Notes under the pieces: generated by a model
Database searches by the model: none
What the model was told of the DNA's origin: nothing
The model's input: only the letters and a program-made list of their open reading frames with translations
Shown: positions 33,360 through 44,058 of the stretch, one piece after another
How the letters are laid out: each line of letters starts with the position of its first letter
Numbering within the stretch: position 1 is the stretch's first letter
DNA from: Parasporobacterium sp.
Lineage (GTDB): Bacteria > Bacillota > Clostridia > Lachnospirales > Lachnospiraceae
Reading direction: 5' to 3'
Assembly (NCBI GenBank): GCA_017459985.1
Contig: JAFUBX010000012.1
Span: 1 to 44,743 of the forward strand
Length of the DNA: 44,743 bases
Made by a program: the position numbers and the translations under genes

Positions 33360-33665
33360 ATGAAACGTTTTTCAGCAAAAAGGTTTTGTCGCAATAAGAA
33401 AATAGAGATTATGCACCGTGAAGGTTTCGTCGCAATAGACAACAAGGAATCCTCCCCTTGGATGTATAATGAGCATTATCTATACTTGCTGTGTATATTA
33501 CGGCCAGGAATTAGAAAAGGCTGCCTGCAGTTTTGCCGACAGCCTTTTCATCATAAAGGAATGTGTTTTATGAAACGATCTGTCCTTATCTTGCGACCCA
33601 CTCTTCCGTGCTGGCTACTGCGTCATCCCAGATCAGCTGGGCATCACCTGCCACAAAGCCGGTAA
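33360..33665 (+). other. Doubtful small ORF with strong ribosome site
   Basis: ATG 33360 follows AAGGAGGAG, one of the best ribosome sites in the window, and opens a 101-codon basic frame. The frame runs through a terminator hairpin and into the convergent esterase gene, which argues against a real protein of this length. It contains two AGGTTTYGTCGCAATA copies exactly 41 bp apart (33381 and 33422). It may be a decayed gene start or repeat DNA. The rest of the gap 33222-33585 holds a small ATAACC/GGTTAT hairpin (33247-33261). Confidence 0.15.
33514..33549. terminator. Bidirectional terminator
   Basis: GAAAAGGCTG and CAGCCTTTTC pair over 10 bp, allowing one bulge on each side, with A- and T-rich edges. 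It lies 37 bp after the stop of the minus-strand esterase and could also end plus-strand transcription from 32088. Confidence 0.75.
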
Positions 33666-35577
33666 GATCATAGTCAACACTTACGATACCGTCTTCGATA
33701 GTTCCTTCCAGAATCTGATCTTCATCGAAGCATTCGAAAGTGATGTAGAATGCGCTCTGATCATCATTGGTTGCTGCAATGATTTCAGCATCACCAAAAC
33801 CATAAGTTCCGTCAAACACCTTAACCTGGGTGTAGTCTGCCGGGATATTGCCATAAGCATCATCTGCTGCCGGAACTGCTTCCCCTGCAGCTTCTCCTTC
33901 TTCTGATTCGGCGTCTTCCGCTTCTTCGGAAGCGGCTGCTTCTCCGCCGGAGCTGGAAGGTGCTGCATGAATCAGATCAAAGAGTTCTTTGTCAAAATTG
34001 TATTTTACTTCTGATACTGCATCAAATACCATCGTTGCGCCGCCATCTTCGGTATAAGCATCCCATGGCAGATCTTCCGTGCTGGGATCTCCGGTATACG
34101 CAAATGCTGCCAAAGCTCCGGACATCGCTTTACCTACAGCGAACGCATTATCCCGATCGCCTGCAATGAATTCCGGAATATCATCAACATTGTTGAACCA
34201 GAAAGGAATCGAGCTTGCGGTATGAATCGGAACAATACCACCATACATTGCATAGTCATATGCCACCACACTATTGTATCCCGTACCGCCATTTGCAGTA
34301 TGCGCATTCAGAAGTCCGATAGCCCAGATCGAAGATACCGAGGTATCAACACCCTGCTGACGATCATGCAGATACAGACCGTCCCGGATGGGGTGGGTCG
34401 GGTAAGCTTCCTTAAAGGCTTCCATGATCTGCGGGCCATATTCTTCGCCATATTTTGAAATATACTGCTGCTCTGCCATCTCATCCGACATACCGGCCAG
34501 CATGTGATGCACTTCTTCATTCGGGGTATATGGGACTACCTCAGCATAGTTTGTGGTAAACTCACCCATTACATTGCTGGCAATCATCGGAATATCTGCG
34601 GAAATCTCATAAGAACCTGTGGGGATATAATCGCCATCGACCACCGGACCAAACTCCACGCCTACTGCGTTGCAAGCCGCCAGCAGATCTTCATAAGGCA
34701 TATTCACCAGAGTATCCATTATTTCTTCATCGGATCCGTCAAGTCCAAGATACTCTACAAGTGCTGCGGTATCAGCCTGTGCTGCTGCAGTGTCACGGGT
34801 CAGCTGAACACTGCCGCCGGAAAGAACAACCGCTTTATGGAAGAGGCCTTTTGCAGACGGCGTGCTCATCAGAGTCGTAACCTTCGTACCACCGCCGGAC
34901 TGCCCGATAATGGTTACATTGGACGGATCGCCGCCGAATGCGGCAATATTTTCCTGTACCCACTGAAGGGAAAGCTGAAGATCCAGCTGGCCCACATTTC
35001 CGGAATACTGATAAGCATCGCCATAAGCAGACACATCCAGATATCCCAAAGCATTCAGACGATGATTGACACTGACAAAAACCACATCGTAAGCTTTTGC
35101 CAGGGATTCGCCCAGATAGAAGTTGAACTGTGTGGAAGATCCGCTGGTAAAACCGCCGCCATGGAACCAGACAATAACCGGACGGGTGGCTTCGCCGCCG
35201 GTTGCCTGGGTCCAGACGTTCAGATTCAGACACAGTTCTTCGCTTTCCGGTTGCACCAGATTGTATGGAAAGCTGTTGAACAGATCCCGGGTATGTTTTC
35301 CCTGCGGAGCGACTTCGCCCATAACATTGGCGCACCAAAGTCCATCCCAGGTGGCTGCAGTCGCAGGCTGGAACCTTTCTGCGGTTCCATAAGGAATATC
35401 ATAATAAGTGTCCACACCATCAAAACGATAACCCATAACTTCACCACCGGTGGTAGTGACAAATACGCCGGTAACAGGATCATCAATGGTGTCAGATTCT
35501 GCGTAAACAGTTATCGCCGTGGCCATAACCATAACTGCAGCTAAAAGAATTGCAAATAATTTGCTGATCTTTTTCAT
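33586..35577 (-). CDS. Secreted type-B carboxylesterase with C-terminal accessory domain
   Basis: A 663-residue exported esterase. Signal peptide 1-26 (KKISKLFAILLAAVMVMATA then ITVYA). Residues 35-535 are a type-B carboxylesterase: HGGGF oxyanion loop (139-143), nucleophile Ser227 in GQSGGG where the family usually has GESAG, and a C-terminal catalytic His region. Residues 537-577 are an acidic Ala/Glu linker. Residues 578-663 are a small beta-rich domain (FDGTYGF, LEGTIEDGIVSVDYD, GFVAGDAQLIWDDA) also found in the esterase remnant at 43488. It is divergent from the AraC regulator gene, with matching palindromes between them. Likely role: hydrolysis of carboxylic esters outside the cell. Confidence 0.9.
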   Translation of the reverse strand: MKKISKLFAILLAAVMVMATAITVYAESDTIDDPVTGVFVTTTGGEVMGYRFDGVDTYYDIPYGTAERFQPATAATWDGLWCANVMGEVAPQGKHTRDLFNSFPYNLVQPESEELCLNLNVWTQATGGEATRPVIVWFHGGGFTSGSSTQFNFYLGESLAKAYDVVFVSVNHRLNALGYLDVSAYGDAYQYSGNVGQLDLQLSLQWVQENIAAFGGDPSNVTIIGQSGGGTKVTTLMSTPSAKGLFHKAVVLSGGSVQLTRDTAAAQADTAALVEYLGLDGSDEEIMDTLVNMPYEDLLAACNAVGVEFGPVVDGDYIPTGSYEISADIPMIASNVMGEFTTNYAEVVPYTPNEEVHHMLAGMSDEMAEQQYISKYGEEYGPQIMEAFKEAYPTHPIRDGLYLHDRQQGVDTSVSSIWAIGLLNAHTANGGTGYNSVVAYDYAMYGGIVPIHTASSIPFWFNNVDDIPEFIAGDRDNAFAVGKAMSGALAAFAYTGDPSTEDLPWDAYTEDGGATMVFDAVSEVKYNFDKELFDLIHAAPSSSGGEAAASEEAEDAESEEGEAAGEAVPAADDAYGNIPADYTQVKVFDGTYGFGDAEIIAATNDDQSAFYITFECFDEDQILEGTIEDGIVSVDYDLTGFVAGDAQLIWDDAVASTEEWVAR

Positions 35578-35597: not shown

Positions 35598-35739
35598 AAT
35601 GTCAGACATTTGCTACAATATTAGAATACCTTTCTACAGAAGAGTTGCATATGTATTTTTCTTTTACTTTTTCGACATTTCTTTACAATATTCTTGATAT
35701 ATGCGATAATTTCTTACACACAGAAGAATGTCTGACATG
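35598..35739. promoter_or_regulatory. Paired AATGTCAGACATT palindromes between esterase and araC genes
   Basis: AATGTCAGACATT (35598-35610) and AATGTCTGACATG (35727-35739) are near-perfect 13-bp palindromes. One lies 20 bp before the esterase start, the other 15 bp before the AraC start. Their placement suggests a shared operator pair controlling both divergent genes, possibly by looping. Confidence 0.65.
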
Positions 35740-35754: not shown

Positions 35755-36867
35755 ATGAAAAAACAGTATTTTGCTACTCCGGAAATGATAAAACATTATC
35801 ATAGAGAACTGGCGAAGACCCGTCAGGGGATTCCTGATGTTCCAAAAACCCTGGAAGCCATGCGGGATCAGGGGCTCTTATCCGAGAAGCCGCTGCCGAT
35901 CCCTGCCCTGGATGGACGCATGGACAAGCAGGAATTTATGCAGGCGTTCGACCGGATTCCCTTCCCGGCCAATCCGGTGATCGAAGATTTCCCGGTCGCC
36001 AGATCCCAGGATAATCGGGTAGTCTTTTCCAAGGGCATGGATGTCATCTGCATTCAACATATCCATAATTACGGTTATGTCGATCAGACGTTAGGTAATG
36101 TCTATGCTTTTACCTATGTTTATCAGGGCTCCTGCAGTTACATCTTCGATGGCACCGAAATCAGGCTGCAGCCGGGAAATATCTTTATCGCTTCGCCTGG
36201 ATTCAGTCATGAAGTCCATACAACGGCAGATACATTCGCAATCGAAACCATGGTGCGTGACTCTGCCTTTGAAATCCTCTTTCATGATTTCCTCACCATT
36301 GATTCCCCGCTTGCGCATTTTCTCCGAAAGCCAAAGCAGGATAGGAAAAATGGATACTATTGTGTTGTGCGTGCAGACCCTGAGGACGAAGAGATTCGGT
36401 TCTACCAACAGGCAATTGCCTGCGAATGCGTTACGGAAAATCTATATTCTAATTCCTGCGCCATCAGTATGATCCGCCTGTTTCTGGCCAGAGCCTTTTA
36501 CAAATACGAAGATACGCTTGAGCTGTATAAGCATGACTTCCATTTTGACAGACCGGATCAAGGGAGCATTCTTCGGTTCATTCAAATCAATTATCAGCAT
36601 ATTACATTGGAGGAAGTAGCTTCCTATTTTCATTATAACAAAACCTATCTGTCCCGCTATATCCATACCCATTTTCACCGTTCGTTTTCGGAGATTGTTA
36701 CGGATCTGAAAATCACACAAGCCAAATCCTATCTTCTGAAAACAGATAAAAAAATAACCGACATTGCACAGATGGTCGGTTATGAATCCCTGGATCATTT
36801 TTCCCGCAGTTTTAAAAAGCAAACCGGTCTCTCACCTGTTGCGTATCGGAAGAATCATATGCATTGA
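35755..36867 (+). CDS. AraC-family transcriptional regulator
   Basis: A 370-residue regulator. Residues 1-95 form a helical N-terminal part. Residues 105-190 are a cupin-like sensor (VYQGSCSYIFDGTEIRLQPGNIFIASPGFSHEV). Residues 270-366 hold the double helix-turn-helix (ITLEEVASYFHYNKTYLSRYIHT, then KKITDIAQMVGYESLDHFSRSFKKQTGLSP). Such proteins normally activate nearby catabolic genes when a small molecule binds the cupin domain. It is the only regulator inside the esterase cluster and is the best candidate for binding the shared promoter element at 39346, 42125 and 44024. The AGAGGAAGG site lies directly before the start. Confidence 0.92.
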   Translation: MKKQYFATPEMIKHYHRELAKTRQGIPDVPKTLEAMRDQGLLSEKPLPIPALDGRMDKQEFMQAFDRIPFPANPVIEDFPVARSQDNRVVFSKGMDVICIQHIHNYGYVDQTLGNVYAFTYVYQGSCSYIFDGTEIRLQPGNIFIASPGFSHEVHTTADTFAIETMVRDSAFEILFHDFLTIDSPLAHFLRKPKQDRKNGYYCVVRADPEDEEIRFYQQAIACECVTENLYSNSCAISMIRLFLARAFYKYEDTLELYKHDFHFDRPDQGSILRFIQINYQHITLEEVASYFHYNKTYLSRYIHTHFHRSFSEIVTDLKITQAKSYLLKTDKKITDIAQMVGYESLDHFSRSFKKQTGLSPVAYRKNHMH

Positions 36868-36966: not shown

Positions 36967-38175
36967 TTATTCGCCAGATCTTAAATTCTGCATAAACTCG
37001 TCTGCCTGGATGGGCCATTCTTTACAGCCTTCTGCTGCGGTGGAAGACTGGCCTACGCCAAATCCATGTTTTGCTCCGGGAACAATGTATAGCTGTGCCG
37101 GTACCCGGTCTTTTACGGAGTCATAGGTGATATACGCATTTTCTACCGGAACCATATCGTCAGCATCTCCATGAACGATATAGAATGCCGGGAGGTTGGT
37201 ATTTTCTTCGGTTACCGGATTGGATCCGGAACCATAGGCAATCAGAGCCACATCCAGATCGCCCGGGATTGCATCCAGTTCATCCGGAATATAGGAGCTG
37301 TCCCCTTCTTCTGCCGGAGTCAGAGCGCCATAAGCATAGTTGATTGCCTGCAGGATGGTACCGCCGCCGCCGGAGAAGCCAGCTGCCGCGATGCAATCCA
37401 TGCCGCCCCAGCCTTCCTGCTCTCCGTAGTAACGAACCAGACGGATGGCCCGCTGCATATCCATGCCGATGTCCTCTCTGGAGAACGGTGCCACACGACG
37501 CTGCAGCAGGAAGCAGTTGTATCCCAGATCATTGAAGCACGGGATGGCTGCATAGCCTTCTGCCGGATTACTTCTGGTGGAGAATCCACCGCCGGAAATC
37601 AGGATGATATTGCCCTTGGCTGCTGCCGGGTCATCCAGGAGACATTTGATCAGTACCGGTCCCTGACCATAGCTGTCGATCTCGCTGGCATCCAGTGCCT
37701 CTTCCGTCAGGCCTTCCTCTTCACCGTCTACCACAGGTCCTACATTGGCTGTAAACCATGCATAACCATTCGCATTATCTTCCGGGCTGGTGCCCCACAG
37801 GAACCAGGCACCGTCAGCAATAGACACTTCCTGTACCAGAACCGACTGGGCTTCCACTACCTTCTGGGCATCTTCGAAAGACTGGGTTCTCTTGAACTGT
37901 CTGCTGTAAACTTTGGAATATTCCTCGTAAGATTCGTCAGTGAATAATAGCTCAAACTCCTGAATAATACGGAAATTCCGGTTCATCAGTTTGATGTATT
38001 CTTCTTCGGAAGCATCGGCCGGGATCTCCCAGAGATAATCGTAAATATCCTGTACTACGCCGTCAATTACGATTTCCTCCGCAGCTGATTCCTCTGCCAT
38101 GACAGTAAATCCTGCAAACAGGGTCATGCACAGTGCTGCAGCCAGAACCACTGCAAATACCTTTTTCAAACTCAT
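36967..38175 (-). CDS. Secreted alpha/beta-hydrolase esterase (paralogue A)
   Basis: A 402-residue exported hydrolase, signal peptide SLKKVFAVVLAAALCMTLFA. An N-terminal helical region (35-130; VVQDIYDYLWEIPADASEEE, MNRNFRIIQEF) precedes the catalytic domain: oxyanion motif ISGGGF, nucleophile Ser268 in GFSGGGG, probable acid VHGDADDMVP and base KHGFGVG. The fold resembles BD-FAE and dienelactone-hydrolase-type esterases. It is similar along its length to the proteins at 39826 and 42170. ATG 38175 follows GGAGG; the earlier in-frame start is ignored. It lies 36 bp downstream of the CE1-like esterase and is probably co-transcribed with it. Confidence 0.87.
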   Translation of the reverse strand: MSLKKVFAVVLAAALCMTLFAGFTVMAEESAAEEIVIDGVVQDIYDYLWEIPADASEEEYIKLMNRNFRIIQEFELLFTDESYEEYSKVYSRQFKRTQSFEDAQKVVEAQSVLVQEVSIADGAWFLWGTSPEDNANGYAWFTANVGPVVDGEEEGLTEEALDASEIDSYGQGPVLIKCLLDDPAAAKGNIILISGGGFSTRSNPAEGYAAIPCFNDLGYNCFLLQRRVAPFSREDIGMDMQRAIRLVRYYGEQEGWGGMDCIAAAGFSGGGGTILQAINYAYGALTPAEEGDSSYIPDELDAIPGDLDVALIAYGSGSNPVTEENTNLPAFYIVHGDADDMVPVENAYITYDSVKDRVPAQLYIVPGAKHGFGVGQSSTAAEGCKEWPIQADEFMQNLRSGE

Positions 38176-38211
38176 TTTCGTTACCTCCATTTGCTGCAAT
38201 TATCAGTAGCT

Positions 38212-39264
38212 TTACTGAAAGATAAAGTTTCTTGCATTTGCCAGAATATACGGGAAGAACAGATCATTATGGGCATATTCGGAAATGGTAAAGTAGAAGT
38301 TGTTCACTTCCGGATCGGTACCGTAGGAGAAGGTATCGGTCTGCTCATAGAAATACTGCATCATCGGAACAAAATCTGCCATCATCTTCTGATCCGCGTT
38401 GCCGCCTACGTAGCAGCTCAGATAGAAATCCAGATCCGGATGAGCATCCAGGGTTTCTTTTACATAAGCAAACTTTTCTTCTGCCGTCTCAGCAGATCTG
38501 CCATCCAGCGGATTGATGCCGCCGCTGCAGGGCATCCAGTATTTGAAATATTCAAAGTCTTCATGCATCACATTCCAGGTACACATGGAGCCTCTGGAAT
38601 AACCTGCCCAGGCACGATGATCACGGGTTGCCTTGATACCCTCATCCGAGAAATCTTCACAGTATACATTAAACTGGCTCTCGATCTGCGGAATCAGATC
38701 TTCCACAATCTCTCTGTAATAAAAGCTGCGATCGCCGCCTTCCACGCCATCGGGAGTAACGAATCCATCTTCCGGAATGTCAAAGTAGAAGGTGGGGCAG
38801 ATGATGATGCATTTGTCCAGAAGGCCAACTTCATCATCAAACAGGTTGTCAAACAGATTGTTGCAGTTCGCGGATTTCATAATGTGATCCCAAAACTCAT
38901 TGGGAGAGCCGCCATTGCCATGCTGGAAATAGATGACATTGTATTTGGTGTCCTTATCATTCTCATCATAGCCGTAGGGAAGATAGATCGTCACATACTT
39001 GGTATAGGTCTCTCCATCTTCATAGGCATCCGTGGTGTAATGAGTACGGATGACCGTTCCCTTGTTTTCGTTCTCAATCAGATTGTAGCCGGTGGGCAGT
39101 ACATCCCATACGATCGGAACATCGAAAACATCCTCATTAACAATGGTGTCCCAGGTTTCAAAATCCGGTTCCGGCTCCGCTTCATCAGCGAAAGCAGTCA
39201 TGACGCCGCACAGCATCGTAAGAGTGATCACCAGGGAGACCACACTCCATAAAATTTTTTTCAT
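38212..39264 (-). CDS. Secreted feruloyl-esterase-like protein (CE1 / esterase D family)
   Basis: A 350-residue exported esterase, signal peptide KKILWSVVSLVITLTMLCG to TAFAD. The catalytic domain has YVTIYLPYGYD, IYFQHGNGGSPNEFW for the oxyanion region, nucleophile Ser224 in WAGYSRGSMCTW, and a C-terminal ISEYAHNDLFF likely to hold the catalytic His. The GYSRGS form of the nucleophile elbow is typical of clostridial feruloyl esterases in family CE1, which free ferulate or related acids from plant arabinoxylan. The gene has its own promoter with the cluster's shared element (39346-39380) and a GGAGG site. Confidence 0.88.
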   Translation of the reverse strand: MKKILWSVVSLVITLTMLCGVMTAFADEAEPEPDFETWDTIVNEDVFDVPIVWDVLPTGYNLIENENKGTVIRTHYTTDAYEDGETYTKYVTIYLPYGYDENDKDTKYNVIYFQHGNGGSPNEFWDHIMKSANCNNLFDNLFDDEVGLLDKCIIICPTFYFDIPEDGFVTPDGVEGGDRSFYYREIVEDLIPQIESQFNVYCEDFSDEGIKATRDHRAWAGYSRGSMCTWNVMHEDFEYFKYWMPCSGGINPLDGRSAETAEEKFAYVKETLDAHPDLDFYLSCYVGGNADQKMMADFVPMMQYFYEQTDTFSYGTDPEVNNFYFTISEYAHNDLFFPYILANARNFIFQ

Positions 39265-39345: not shown

Positions 39346-39380
39346 ATTATACACCATCCACCGCAACAAGACCGTGACAG
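39346..39380 (-). promoter_or_regulatory. Shared esterase-cluster promoter element, site A
   Basis: Read on the minus strand: CTGTCAC, 4 bp, TTGTTGCG, 10 bp, TATAAT. It lies about 82 bp before the CE1-like esterase start. There is no -35 consensus at the normal distance; TTGTTGCG is too close to the -10 to serve as one, so activator dependence is likely. Confidence 0.7.
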
Positions 39381-39450
39381 GGACCTCTACGATTTATTGT
39401 ATTTTTCATTTTAGTACTTTGTCAATCCCACCATACAGCAAATATTCCGG

Positions 39451-39812
39451 TTGTGTATCGTCGCCGATCCTGTTCCGCACCAAAATTGCGATTGTGTATC
39501 ATTGCCGATCCTGTTCCGCACCAAAATTGCGATTGTGTATCATCCACCAGAAGATCCCCAAGATAATATGCCATTTTCTTGTAGATAATTGCTGTTGTTT
39601 TCTGTTTTTTATACTATTATCGACATTTCAATAACTACTACTGATACACTATCGCAATTTTGGTGCGGCTCCCCCGATATGTAACCGAAAACCTGGTGCG
39701 AAAATGATACTCAATTGCATTTTGCTGCTTGCTGCGATACATAAACCGAAGATCTGGTGCAGTAATGAAACACTATCGAAAATCCGGGGCTGGCAGCGAC
39801 ACATGATAGGGA
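39451..39812. repeat. Direct and inverted repeat cluster
   Basis: Two 41-bp direct repeats starting TTGTGTATC (39451, 39492) contain CCGCACCAAAATTGCGA. A 27-bp arm (39516-39542) recurs inverted at 39642-39668 with one mismatch, framing an AT-rich 99-bp core. Further degenerate TGGTGCG / GATAC motifs continue to about 39812. The gap 39265-39825 contains no gene. Confidence 0.75.
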
Positions 39813-39825
39813 TAAACTTCCGTGC

Positions 39826-41022
39826 TTATTCCTCAATAAATGACGGGATCCCGGTCAGGTACCAGTAGCTGCGGTTGGTCTGGTAGTTCTTATGCGCCTG
39901 CATAAATTCATCTGCCTGATAGGGCCAGAGTTCCGTGCCTTCTACAGTTCCGGTAGCAGGCGGCAGGCCGACGCCGAATCCATGGGGTGCACCGTCCACA
40001 ATGTAAAGCTCTGCCGGAAGTCCGTATTCCAGGGCTTTTTCATACAAGGCTGTGGAATCTTCCGGGCCGTTGCCGTCTTCCGATCCGACACAGATATAAA
40101 AAGCTGGCAAATATGGATTTTCTTCCGGAGTAACCACTAACCCCTGCGCTGCACCATAAAGGACCATTTCCACGTCCACATCACTGGAGATCTCATCAAT
40201 CTCATCCGGGATATAATCAGAATCATAAACTGAGGCATTCCGCATGCCGTAGAGATAATTCACCGAACCTCCCAGAATGGTGCTGCCACCGCCGGACCAG
40301 CCAAGGGCCGCATACATATCCTGTCCGCCCAGATCATTTTCCATAATATAATACTTCGCTACCTTTACGAAACGGTTGTAGTCCATGTAGATATCCTCTT
40401 CGGAATACGGACCAACCCGGCGCTGCAGCAGGAAATAGTTATATCCAAGATCATTGAAGACGTCAGCTGCCGGATAACCTTCGGAGCCGTTGGACCACAC
40501 CAGCATTCCGCCGCCGGATACGGCAAAGATGTTGCCCTTGACCTGGCTTTGATCTTCCAACAGATACATAATTGCGAAAGGTTCAAAACCGTAGCCGAAC
40601 ATCTGGGATGTGTCAATGTCCTCCGGGGTAAACTCTTCCCCATCTACGCAGGACATGTCCGTACCGTCCCAGATGAAGAGGATCCGATCCGCCAGGGTAT
40701 CGTTTTCAATCAGCGCATTCCGGGCTTCAATGGCGGCAACAATCCCTTCCATGGTTGCCTCTTTTTTCATCTTTGTAACCGCCTTATTATAGGCCTTGTA
40801 GGAATCTTCTTCAAAAATCGGTTTCAGAGACTGGATATTTTTAAAGTTCCGGTTTTCCAATGCAATCGCCGTTTCCACATCCGCATCCGCAGGGATCTCT
40901 GTAATAAACCGGTCATAATCCCGGGGCTGCACTTCCGGTAACAACGTTTCTCCTGCAAACGCAGGAATCGCCATGCACAGTATTATGGTGATACAAATAA
41001 CTCCTATAATTCCTTTTTTCAT
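39826..41022 (-). CDS. Secreted alpha/beta-hydrolase esterase (paralogue B)
   Basis: A 398-residue exported hydrolase, signal peptide KKGIIGVICITIILCMAIPA. Same layout as paralogues A and C: N-terminal helical region with ITEIPADADVETAIALENRN, SGGGM oxyanion motif, nucleophile Ser243 in GWSGGGST, and base region APHGFGVG. Closest to paralogue C at 42170, sharing SQMFGYG, EGYPAAxVFNDLGYNxFLLQRRV and ADEFMQAH. A longer C-terminal tail (SYWYLTGIPSFIEE) is unique to it. It follows the 41037 gene by 14 bp and probably shares that gene's promoter. Confidence 0.87.
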   Translation of the reverse strand: MKKGIIGVICITIILCMAIPAFAGETLLPEVQPRDYDRFITEIPADADVETAIALENRNFKNIQSLKPIFEEDSYKAYNKAVTKMKKEATMEGIVAAIEARNALIENDTLADRILFIWDGTDMSCVDGEEFTPEDIDTSQMFGYGFEPFAIMYLLEDQSQVKGNIFAVSGGGMLVWSNGSEGYPAADVFNDLGYNYFLLQRRVGPYSEEDIYMDYNRFVKVAKYYIMENDLGGQDMYAALGWSGGGSTILGGSVNYLYGMRNASVYDSDYIPDEIDEISSDVDVEMVLYGAAQGLVVTPEENPYLPAFYICVGSEDGNGPEDSTALYEKALEYGLPAELYIVDGAPHGFGVGLPPATGTVEGTELWPYQADEFMQAHKNYQTNRSYWYLTGIPSFIEE

Positions 41023-41036
41023 ATGCGCTCCTTTTT

Positions 41037-42002
41037 TTACTGCTTTTCTTTATTCGACCGATCCCGATGCCCGAATTCCACATCCAGGAAGGTCTCCAGC
41101 TGATCAATCATCTGATCGGATCCGGCATAATTGTAGCCCATGGCAAAGGGGCCGTTGATGCCGCCATACATATGGAGCTCGCATTCGGTAACCGGGTTCA
41201 GGGCGAGATATGCTGTGACACAGAATCCAGATGCAAAATGTCCGGATGCTCCGGCGAAAAAGAATGCCGGCCAGGACTGGGGGTAGTTGGGATCCTCCTC
41301 TGACAGAATCAAAACCGGATCTGCGATGTCTACAGCAGCACCTGCAGTATCGTGGGTGGATCCTGCAGCATAAACACAGACAACTACGCCAACACTGGCA
41401 TCCATTTTATCGATATCATCACAGATATAGTCCGGATAGATACTGTCCGGGGTAATGTCACCGGCCAGCATAATGCTTTCCGCATAAACATGCATGGCTC
41501 CGGCAGAAAAGCCCATAGCTGCGATATGATCTATGGCTCCGATGCCCTTCTCTTCTGCATAGTACTTGAGATAGCGCACTGCCCGCTGCACATCCAATGT
41601 GGCATCCACGCTTTCATAGGGCTGTACACGGTAATCCAGAAGATATGCATTATAGCCAATGGAATTGAGCCATTCACAGCAAGGGATTCCTTCTCCGGGG
41701 TTGCTGCGCATCCGGTCGCCGCCTCCGGAGAGAACGATCACATTTCCTTTTGCTGCAGACTGATCCTCCAGCAGATATGCGGTCAAATGCGGCACAAATT
41801 CCGCATCGTCCGTTGCTCCCTGAAAATCATATTCAGAAGCTGCTTCTTCCACTGCCATGGCCTCGCCCCAGATGTTCCAGATTTCCTGTGCGTTTTCCTG
41901 TGCATCTACCACATCCTCCTGCGCAAATGCCATCACCGGCAGCATCGCCAGAAGCATCACCGCGCACATGACAATCGCCATCCACTTCATCACCTTTTTC
42001 AT
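41037..42002 (-). CDS. Secreted alpha/beta-hydrolase esterase (short form)
   Basis: A 321-residue exported hydrolase, signal peptide KKVMKWMAIVMCAVMLLAML to AFAQ. It lacks most of the N-terminal helical region of its paralogues. The catalytic domain has VLSGGGDRMRSNPGEG, nucleophile Ser166 in GFSAGAM, and a distinctive C-terminal part with ASGHFASGF and MYGGINGPFAMGY; the catalytic His may be in one of these. ATG 42002 follows AGGAGG; the longer frame to 42068 is rejected. It is the first gene of a two-gene unit with paralogue B, behind the shared element at 42125. Confidence 0.83.
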   Translation of the reverse strand: MKKVMKWMAIVMCAVMLLAMLPVMAFAQEDVVDAQENAQEIWNIWGEAMAVEEAASEYDFQGATDDAEFVPHLTAYLLEDQSAAKGNVIVLSGGGDRMRSNPGEGIPCCEWLNSIGYNAYLLDYRVQPYESVDATLDVQRAVRYLKYYAEEKGIGAIDHIAAMGFSAGAMHVYAESIMLAGDITPDSIYPDYICDDIDKMDASVGVVVCVYAAGSTHDTAGAAVDIADPVLILSEEDPNYPQSWPAFFFAGASGHFASGFCVTAYLALNPVTECELHMYGGINGPFAMGYNYAGSDQMIDQLETFLDVEFGHRDRSNKEKQ

Positions 42003-42124
42003 TTTATTCCTCCTAACACAAATTTCTATCACTTCAAGATCGTCCTGCAGCCATTCAGGAAACAGCAAAACAGAAACGATCCAGCATCATGCTGAAACAC
42101 CGGCATGACACTGAACCGTTCCTG

Positions 42125-42160
42125 ATTATACCTTATATAGCGCAACAATTCCGTGACAAA
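42125..42160 (-). promoter_or_regulatory. Shared esterase-cluster promoter element, site B
   Basis: Minus strand: TTTGTCAC, 4 bp, TTGTTGCG, 10 bp, TATAAT. It drives the 42002 gene with a leader of roughly 115 bases and begins right after the stop of the upstream esterase gene. Spacing is identical to sites A and C. Confidence 0.7.
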
Positions 42161-42169
42161 TCAGATCCA

Positions 42170-43318
42170 TTAGTACCGGTCTGTCTGATAGCCCAGATGT
42201 GCCTGCATGAATTCATCGGCATGCATGGGCCATTCTTCTGTGCCCGGAGCCTGGCCGGTGGCTGGGGAAAGGCCTACGCCAAATCCATGTTCCGCGCCTT
42301 CGATCATGTTCAGTTCTGCCGGAATGTCCAAAGCAGTCACAGCATCGTAAAGATCATAGGATCCCTGGGGATCTACCGTCGTATCTTCCGTACCCTGGCA
42401 GATATAGAAGCAGGGCAGGTTTTCATTACCGCTCTCCGGATCCAGGCTGCCGCCGTAGATGGTCATGGCCACATCCAGATCTGCATTAATAGCGTCGATT
42501 TCATCTGGTACATAATCGGAATCGTAATCTGCAGGTGTCACATTGCCATAGAATTTGTTGATACTGCCCATCAGGGTGAAACTGCCGCCGGACCAGCCTA
42601 CACCGGCAAACATGTCCTGTCCGCCATAGCCTTCCTCTTTGGCATGATATTTCACCAGACGGATCAGCCGCTGATAATCCATGAAGATGTCTTCGTTGGA
42701 ATAGGGCTCTACTCTTCTCTGAAGCAGGAAGAAATTATATCCCAGATCATTAAACACCTGAGCTGCCGGGTAACCTTCCGCATTATTAGCCCAGACCTTC
42801 ATGGCACCGCCGGAGCAGGCAATGATGTTACCCTTGCAAGCGGACTGATCTTCCACCAGATATTTGATGGCAATCGGCTCATAGCCGTAACCGAACATCT
42901 GGCTGGCATCCAGTTCTTCTTCCGTATATTCCTCGCCGTCCACGCAGGGCATCATATCCTCATTCCAGATAAACCAAATCCGATCTTCTACGGATTCCAC
43001 TTCCACCAGGGCTTCCCGGGCTTCTACTGCCGCCTGTACCGCTTCCATAGTTTCTTCTTTTTTCATGGTAGAAACAGCTTTGTTGTAAGCTTTCAAAGAA
43101 TCCGCATCAAACAGCATCTGCATTGCGGTGATATGTTTGTTATTCCGTTTTTCAATCTTGATCGCAGTCTCCACATCCGCATCCGCCGGAATCTCCTGGA
43201 TCAGCCGGGCATAGTCTTTTTCTTCGGTTTCCGGTTCTGCTGCCACCGCGGTCAATGACCCCGCCAGCATTCCCAGACACATGATAACCGTAAGCATTCC
43301 ACATAAAAATCGTTTCAT
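42170..43318 (-). CDS. Secreted alpha/beta-hydrolase esterase (paralogue C)
   Basis: A 382-residue exported hydrolase, signal peptide KRFLCGMLTVIMCLGMLAGS to AVAAE. N-terminal helical region with IQEIPADADVETAIKIEKRN; catalytic domain with CSGGAM, nucleophile Ser243 in GWSGGSFT, and EHGFGVG for the base. It differs from paralogue B mainly in the tail and in having SGGA rather than SGGG at the oxyanion loop. Its upstream gap does not contain the shared promoter element; instead there is a TATAAT-type box and a hairpin at 43354, so it may be controlled separately. Confidence 0.87.
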   Translation of the reverse strand: MKRFLCGMLTVIMCLGMLAGSLTAVAAEPETEEKDYARLIQEIPADADVETAIKIEKRNNKHITAMQMLFDADSLKAYNKAVSTMKKEETMEAVQAAVEAREALVEVESVEDRIWFIWNEDMMPCVDGEEYTEEELDASQMFGYGYEPIAIKYLVEDQSACKGNIIACSGGAMKVWANNAEGYPAAQVFNDLGYNFFLLQRRVEPYSNEDIFMDYQRLIRLVKYHAKEEGYGGQDMFAGVGWSGGSFTLMGSINKFYGNVTPADYDSDYVPDEIDAINADLDVAMTIYGGSLDPESGNENLPCFYICQGTEDTTVDPQGSYDLYDAVTALDIPAELNMIEGAEHGFGVGLSPATGQAPGTEEWPMHADEFMQAHLGYQTDRY

Positions 43319-43353
43319 TGTCTCTTCTCCTGTAATAATGATTTGTAAGTTAT

Positions 43354-43383
43354 TGAGTCAGCAGGTATATGCCTGCTGACTCA
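43354..43383. promoter_or_regulatory. 12-bp-stem hairpin in the leader of paralogue C
   Basis: TGAGTCAGCAGG and CCTGCTGACTCA pair perfectly around TATATG, 36 bp before the start codon at 43318. No T-run follows on the minus strand, so it is more likely an operator or leader structure than a terminator. Confidence 0.6.
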
Positions 43384-43487
43384 GTGATATTAAACTACTA
43401 CATATTATAATAAAGGAAAAGTTAATATAGGGAAATGACCGGATTTGACAGGAAGCCGGACTATATATGATGTTCTTGAAAGGATTA

Positions 43488-43950
43488 TTATTCCCGCACA
43501 ATCGGTTCCCAAGGGTCTTCGATGGAGATGGCATCTTCATACATCATCTGTGCATCATCATCTGCAAAACCAATGGCATTATAGGTTACAGTTACCACGC
43601 CGTCTTCCACGGTGCCTTCAATCACGTTCTGGCTGTGCATCACGGTATACTCGGCATGGAATTCGGTTTCCTCCTCATTCATGGCGAAATACACATCACT
43701 GTTGGTGAAGGTATAAAAGCCATAGAAAGTTTTCGCCTTGGTAAATTTTTCAGGGATCTCAGGATCATTTACCTCTTCATTTTCCGGTGCAATCTGACCA
43801 CGATTCGCAGAGATATTTGGAAATATCTTGTACTACACCGTAAATTGTTTCAAGATCATCTGCGGCTGTTTCCTGCGCAAAAGTCCTGCTGCCAGTAAAC
43901 ATCGACAGTCCCAGTAGCATAGCTATCAGTATCACTATCATACGCCTCAT
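43488..43950 (-). pseudogene. Remnant of a secreted esterase (internal deletion and frameshift)
   Basis: The start (ATG 43950, GGAGGG site) encodes a signal peptide, RRMIVILIAMLLGLSMFTGS, then TIYGVVQDISKYL, which resembles the beginning of paralogue A (VVQDIYDYL). The frame then stops near 43777. The other frame carries on as QIAPENEEVNDPEIPEKFT and a complete C-terminal domain (FYGFYTF, IEGTVEDGVVTVTYN, GFADDDAQMMYEDA) to the stop at 43488, homologous to the tail of the 33586 esterase. The whole catalytic domain is missing between the two parts. It still has a full promoter element upstream (44024). Confidence 0.75.
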
Positions 43951-44023
43951 GATTATCCCTCCATTCTCATTCTGCTTTCCCGCGAAGTAATGCGGGCAAT
44001 ATCCCACTTTCTGTTCATCGGCT

Positions 44024-44058
44024 ACTATAGCAAATAAACCGCAACAACTCTGTAACAA
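44024..44058 (-). promoter_or_regulatory. Shared esterase-cluster promoter element, site C
   Basis: Minus strand: TTGTTAC, 4 bp, TTGTTGCG, 10 bp, TATAGT. It precedes the esterase remnant by about 75 bp. One base in the first block and one in the -10 differ from sites A and B; spacing is the same. Confidence 0.65.

Follow-up and report, generated by a model that had tools for sequence, protein, structure and literature searches.

A predicted operator of 11-bp direct repeats in front of secreted esterase genes of Parasporobacterium and its probable two-component reader

Which regulator reads the sequence element shared by three esterase-gene promoters of Parasporobacterium sp.? The DNA analysed (the window) is the full 44,743-nt stretch of contig JAFUBX010000012.1 (assembly GCA_017459985.1, positions 1-44,743, forward strand), part of a 3.53-Mb genome (G000) whose contigs are referred to here as C12, C61, C63, C93, C96, C109, C111 and C126. 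An earlier reading of the window from its letters alone (the sequence-only reading) proposed a rigid bipartite element, an activator-dependent promoter and a local esterase regulon under the AraC-family regulator encoded at 35755. The analysis below indicates that the element is probably the operator of a two-component activator, in which a receiver domain (REC) is joined to a SARP-like winged helix; the most likely candidate is the response regulator (RR) encoded at C96:7655-8440 together with the kinase encoded at C96:8418-10382.

A direct repeat at a fixed distance from the -10 hexamer

A search of the window with the pattern TGTYAC-N4-TTGTTGCG-N10-TATART, allowing <=3 mismatches, found the element on the minus strand at 39346-39379 (site 1), 42125-42158 (site 2) and 44024-44057 (site 3), each with zero mismatches. 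No further match was present in the window at <=3 mismatches; in 100 dinucleotide-shuffled sequences, matches averaged 0.02 with a maximum of 1. Each site consists of a direct repeat (period 11 bp) and, at an unvarying distance beyond it, a -10 hexamer. Site 1 contains TGTCACGGT/TGTTGCGGT (39379-39360) and TATAAT (39351-39346), site 2 contains TGTCACGGA/TGTTGCGCT and TATAAT, and site 3 contains TGTTACAGA/TGTTGCGGT and TATAGT.

The genome was searched with the full pattern (<=3 mismatches) and with the 18-bp core alone (<=1 mismatch), each accompanied by a backward control. The full pattern occurs at 11 places (backward control 1). The core has 15 matches (backward control 1), comprising these 11, C126:156191 and three others (C61:9785, C12:23713 and C96:132612), which were set aside as background because they lack a promoter context. 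The 12 promoter sites, located on C61, C96, C111 and C126, align gap-free with the consensus TGTYRCGGT-N2-TGTTGCGGT-N8-TATAAT. Invariant in all 12 are TGT at positions 0-2, C at 5, TGTTGC at 11-16 and the -10 bases T, A and T at 28, 29 and 33; the spacing of the repeats to the -10 hexamer is also identical throughout. None of the 12 sites has a -35 hexamer: at spacers of 16-18, every candidate has >=4 mismatches to TTGACA.

These results uphold much of the sequence-only reading. The three promoters do share a rigid element that is exact at all of them and absent elsewhere in the window at the threshold used. Its sequence and spacing stand as described, but its two blocks are the halves of one repeat of 11-bp period rather than unrelated. 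The element overlaps the position of a non-consensus -35 and keeps an invariant distance to the -10, as was proposed for a shared, activator-type element that defines a regulon. The regulon is not local to the esterase cluster, however, as shown by the sites on four contigs. Many of the genome-wide matches precede esterase-like genes, and a GH106 gene, a GH39 gene and a kinase/RR operon are also preceded by the element.

Comparisons with paralogous promoters on C126 differ from site to site. Site 1 forms a conserved island between otherwise diverged promoters of genes whose proteins are 96% identical. The C126 paralogue of the gene behind site 2 (88% identical) also has an upstream box (C126:156191), and the two promoters did not align together. 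The 34 bases of site 3 are identical in the C126 paralogue (C126:160391), within DNA that is similar throughout. An assembly duplicate was ruled out as the origin of the C126 sites, since the flanks differ and the proteins are 88-96% identical. A site for an alternative sigma factor was likewise ruled out from the sequence; the blocks lie 10 and 22 bp from the -10, and neither is a possible -35 distance.

The candidate regulator and its relatives

The kinase and RR genes on C96 are adjacent and overlapping, and the box is located in the promoter of their operon as well as before two neighbours of the operon. The receiver domain of the RR (PF00072, E 2e-16) and the His_kinase domain of the kinase (PF06580, E 3e-19) are above the Pfam cut-offs, whereas HATPase_c is below its cut-off. 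Trans_reg_C scores 18.7 bits in the RR against a cut-off of 26.2, and 20 of 27 relatives match this model at E<=1. The C-terminal domain was modelled alone, a search with the whole model having returned receiver domains throughout. Its predicted fold is an OmpR-type DNA-binding domain with the extension that characterizes the SARP fold, and fold matches include the PhoB structures 1gxp and 1qqi. A complete BTAD is not present: the RR ends ~40 residues past the winged helix, and none of the 27 members has a Pfam BTAD match at E<=1. Judged from sequence, the element appears to be a real, functional-looking operator, whose regulator is most likely of the REC plus truncated-SARP type. On contig C109 (L065:2144-2479) lies what remains of another copy of this RR; it matches the C96 RR only over residues 200-257, with 78% identity.

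When named genomes were scanned with the C96 RR, 12 loci were recovered, nine of them with full-length RRs (31-35% identity). In seven of the nine (L094 of Clostridium methylpentosum, L096-L100 and L102), an exact TGTTGC-N4-TTGTTGCG box lies between the RR gene and the gene that follows, close to the 3' end of the former, and is accompanied by a -10-like hexamer at a similar spacing; L095 and L101 have no exact box beside the RR. Since their downstream genes are alike, the seven loci are partly orthologous and do not represent seven independent events. A box with one mismatch is present in G155. In G015, boxes that include a triple repeat are found 4-6 kb away from the RR. Of the 299 family genomes, 123 encode the RR domain. 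The strict box with a -10 occurs in four (7, 7, 3 and 1 sites; backward control 3 in all), all of which encode the RR domain (P 0.028); G102, among the family genomes, holds the same contig as L100. In two other genera (G015 and G211; L070 and L107-L116), the genes behind the same box encode several proteins whose function is unknown, two of them >1,300 aa and most without a signal-peptide-like start. The differing genes behind the boxes in G015 and G211 indicate that regulon content varies among lineages.

The arrangement resembles known systems. The SARP target box is described (PMC10936776) as direct repeats with a spacing of 11 or 22 bp, the 3' copy lying 8 bp before the -10. All 12 own-genome sites follow this rule, assuming the C96 RR as reader. 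Compared with AfsR and the afs box of the Streptomyces SARP activators (PMC10936776), the winged helix of the C96-type RR follows a receiver domain, its chain stops a short way into the BTAD-like part, and the half-site is TGTYRCGGT. Instead of antibiotic genes, the predicted targets here are genes of secreted clostridial hydrolases. The element would work like a SARP box, but the protein, having no full BTAD, is not classed as a SARP. PhoB likewise combines a REC domain with a winged helix, and the pho box consists of 11-bp direct repeats that replace the -35. EmbR of Mycobacterium (2ff4, 2fez) is longer than the C96 RR; it lacks a receiver domain and carries a complete BTAD plus an FHA domain. 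No described site for this RR family was found among the literature matches listed.

Together these features suggest how the promoters may operate. The kinase would be switched on by an external signal, probably a carbohydrate or a fragment of the wall. The phosphorylated RR would bind the two 11-bp repeats, at about -40 to -19, as a side-by-side dimer and contact sigma region 4, standing in for the missing -35 as AfsR does. RNA polymerase would then transcribe the genes on four contigs that encode secreted glycoside hydrolases and carbohydrate esterases, and transcription of the kinase/RR operon itself would provide positive feedback.

Spacing across the family and competing readings

The spacing of the repeats was analysed across the family by counting exact repeated 7-mers followed by a -10-like hexamer 9-12 bp on, at spacings of 8-25. 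In 58 RR loci, 39 sites (32 loci) were found at 11 bp compared with 1-18 at other spacings, and five dinucleotide shuffles gave 2-4 at 11 bp. Restriction to non-coding DNA left 38 sites (31 loci) compared with 0-6. L100 was left out of the family counts (AraC, spacing, half-site, similarity, shuffle and non-coding) because it is the same contig as L118, but was kept in one further RR set; the remnant L065 was left out of that set and of the RR sets for the AraC, spacing, shuffle and non-coding counts. The half-sites vary among RR loci, and half-site similarity tracks similarity of the DNA-binding domains, as would be expected if each regulator read its neighbouring box; shared descent contributes as well. 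The half-site listing omits seven of the 61 RR rows (L100, two L066 pieces, L068, L074, L081 and L089; domain match <100 residues); the comparison with the domains omits L117_10015 and includes L070, added by hand, whose site did not pass the exact test. On contig C63, a further RR of the family is flanked by 11-bp repeats of a different half-site, TTTGGACA (L066:1777 and 7100). An attempt to base a recognition code on the helix alone did not distinguish the C96 RR from the others.

Several observations weigh against this picture. Orthologous loci inflate both the 11-bp test and the similarity test. In a hold-out of 20 further RR loci, the non-coding filter left five sites at 11 bp (4 of 20 loci) compared with 0-3 (Poisson P 0.003), and the unfiltered counts had no clear excess at 11 bp (7 at 11, 10 at 12, 7 at 9 and 7 at 18). 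The filter was added after the first hold-out because excesses at multiples of three resembled codon repeats, and the filtered figure is therefore not fully prospective. A control of 13 own-genome loci of other RRs gave 3 at 11 bp compared with 0-5 unfiltered, and 2 compared with 0-3 filtered; the RR domain is present in all 20 hold-out loci and in none of the 13 controls. Thus, the 11-bp rule is well supported near C96-type RRs and weakly for the wider family. The strict box in just four genomes means that most genomes with the RR domain do not have this half-site. The best sequence-profile match of the C96 RR in the PDB is DrrB, of the OmpR/PhoB type (E 5e-5), ahead of EmbR. No close full-length orthologue of the C96 RR was found (best 38%), and its recognition helix is not nearest to those of other TTGTTGC-linked RRs. 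Further RRs of this family are encoded in the own genome (C93, C12 and C63), and a near-consensus sigma-70 promoter (TTGACA-18-TACAAT, 11/12; 39396-39425, minus strand) lies directly upstream of site 1.

The additional family members, together with half-sites that do not map cleanly onto recognition helices, would allow an RR of C93, C12 or C63 to read the box instead. This is unlikely, as the box occupies the promoter of the C96 kinase/RR operon and also precedes the operon's two neighbours. Moreover, within <=5 kb and with one mismatch allowed, the C93 RR has no 11-bp site nearby, the C12 RR has one that is unlike the box, and the C63 RR has the different half-site. The AraC-family regulator proposed in the sequence-only reading (35755..36867, plus strand; HTH_18, E 4e-21) was considered and not favoured. 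AraC-family genes do lie near the sites on C61, on C111 (a 52%-identical paralogue) and at the left end of C96, but the genome has 25 HTH_18 matches, and such proximity is therefore cheap. With the DNA-binding part of the window AraC as query, AraC-like proteins were found at 3 of 59 RR loci (L014, L068 and L136), and only the own-genome L014 has a box, so the box is not kept with an AraC gene in relatives. The box instead marks the kinase/RR promoter and the neighbours of RR genes in other Clostridia. The intergenic region that separates the AraC gene from the carboxylesterase gene (33586-35577) contains two perfect ATGTCWGACAT palindromes (35599-35609 and 35728-35738), perhaps the AraC protein's own operators, though they were not found at C111. 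The case for AraC is thus weakened, and binding of the element by this protein and its paralogues is distinctly unlikely.

The sigma-70 promoter upstream of site 1 is what would be expected if the box were a repressor operator. By eye, however, this promoter is absent from the C126 paralogue, the 12 sites have no -35, and their invariant -10 distance fits an activator that touches sigma; repression is accordingly very improbable. Control by the LytTR-type RR encoded within the paralogous C126 esterase cluster (L013:107-820) has hardly any likelihood. LytTR sites are repeats ~21-22 bp apart upstream of the -35, a geometry that an 11-bp repeat abutting the -10 does not fit, and neither the genome-wide pattern search nor the core search found a box in front of this gene.

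With a C96-type two-component activator as the preferred reader, the result provides a predicted operator and spacing rules for a common RR family (123 of 299 genomes), with which regulons of the Clostridia that carry it could be read from sequence, as done here for secreted carbohydrate esterases. The chances are about even that receiver plus truncated-SARP regulators read boxes of fixed geometry throughout the Clostridia (repeats 11 bp apart, ~10 bp before the -10). Half-sites such as TTGTTGCG, TTGTTGGACA, TGTCACGG and TGTAACG would differ between paralogues; the outcome would be a large number of two-component promoters insulated from one another, several of them in each genome, with the box readable beside the regulator gene. 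If confirmed, the operator predicted here would represent a SARP-style sigma adaptation outside actinobacteria and a natural series of regulator/half-site pairs for deriving a recognition code.

Genes behind the sites

The window genes behind the sites are all on the minus strand, and putative secretion was judged from signal-peptide-like N-termini. The gene behind site 1 (38212..39264) encodes a secreted-looking esterase (Pfam Esterase E 2e-4, slightly below cut-off) and starts 97 bp past the 18-bp core. An alpha/beta-hydrolase gene (36967..38184; Peptidase_S9/DLH, above cut-off) follows after a 27-bp gap and is likely second in the operon. Behind site 2 lies a BD-FAE-like esterase gene (41037..42002; BD-FAE E 1.4e-4, below cut-off), followed after 14 bp by a hydrolase-like gene that is likely second in that operon (39826..41022; weak Peptidase_S9 match, E 0.025, below cut-off). 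The esterase gene behind site 3 (43467..43950) is internally deleted: blastn comparison with the C126 copy showed that it lacks ~1.06 kb, with flanks 93% and 91% identical and the box retained. A Peptidase_S9-like esterase gene without its own site (42170..43318; slightly above cut-off) is perhaps transcribed from site 3. The window genes at 38212, 39826, 41037 and 42170 have C126 paralogues with 96, 92, 88 and 95% identical proteins.

Behind the sites on C126 are three esterase-like genes and a relative of the window gene at 41037; automatic start choice did not settle the starts of a C126 esterase (448 aa) and of the kinase gene. The C96 sites precede two esterase-like genes, the GH106 gene and the kinase/RR operon, and the C111 site precedes the gene of a 1341-aa GH39 protein. 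The GH106 and GH39 assignments are above the Pfam cut-offs, whereas many of the esterases fall below theirs. Models for pectin acetylesterase, feruloyl esterase and rhamnosidase gave weak matches, all far below cut-off. These weak esterase and rhamnosidase matches, together with GH106, may point to plant polysaccharide side chains. Upstream of site 1, the window also contains tandem repeats of 41 bp together with an inverted copy of 27 nt (39441-39544 and 39639-39668).
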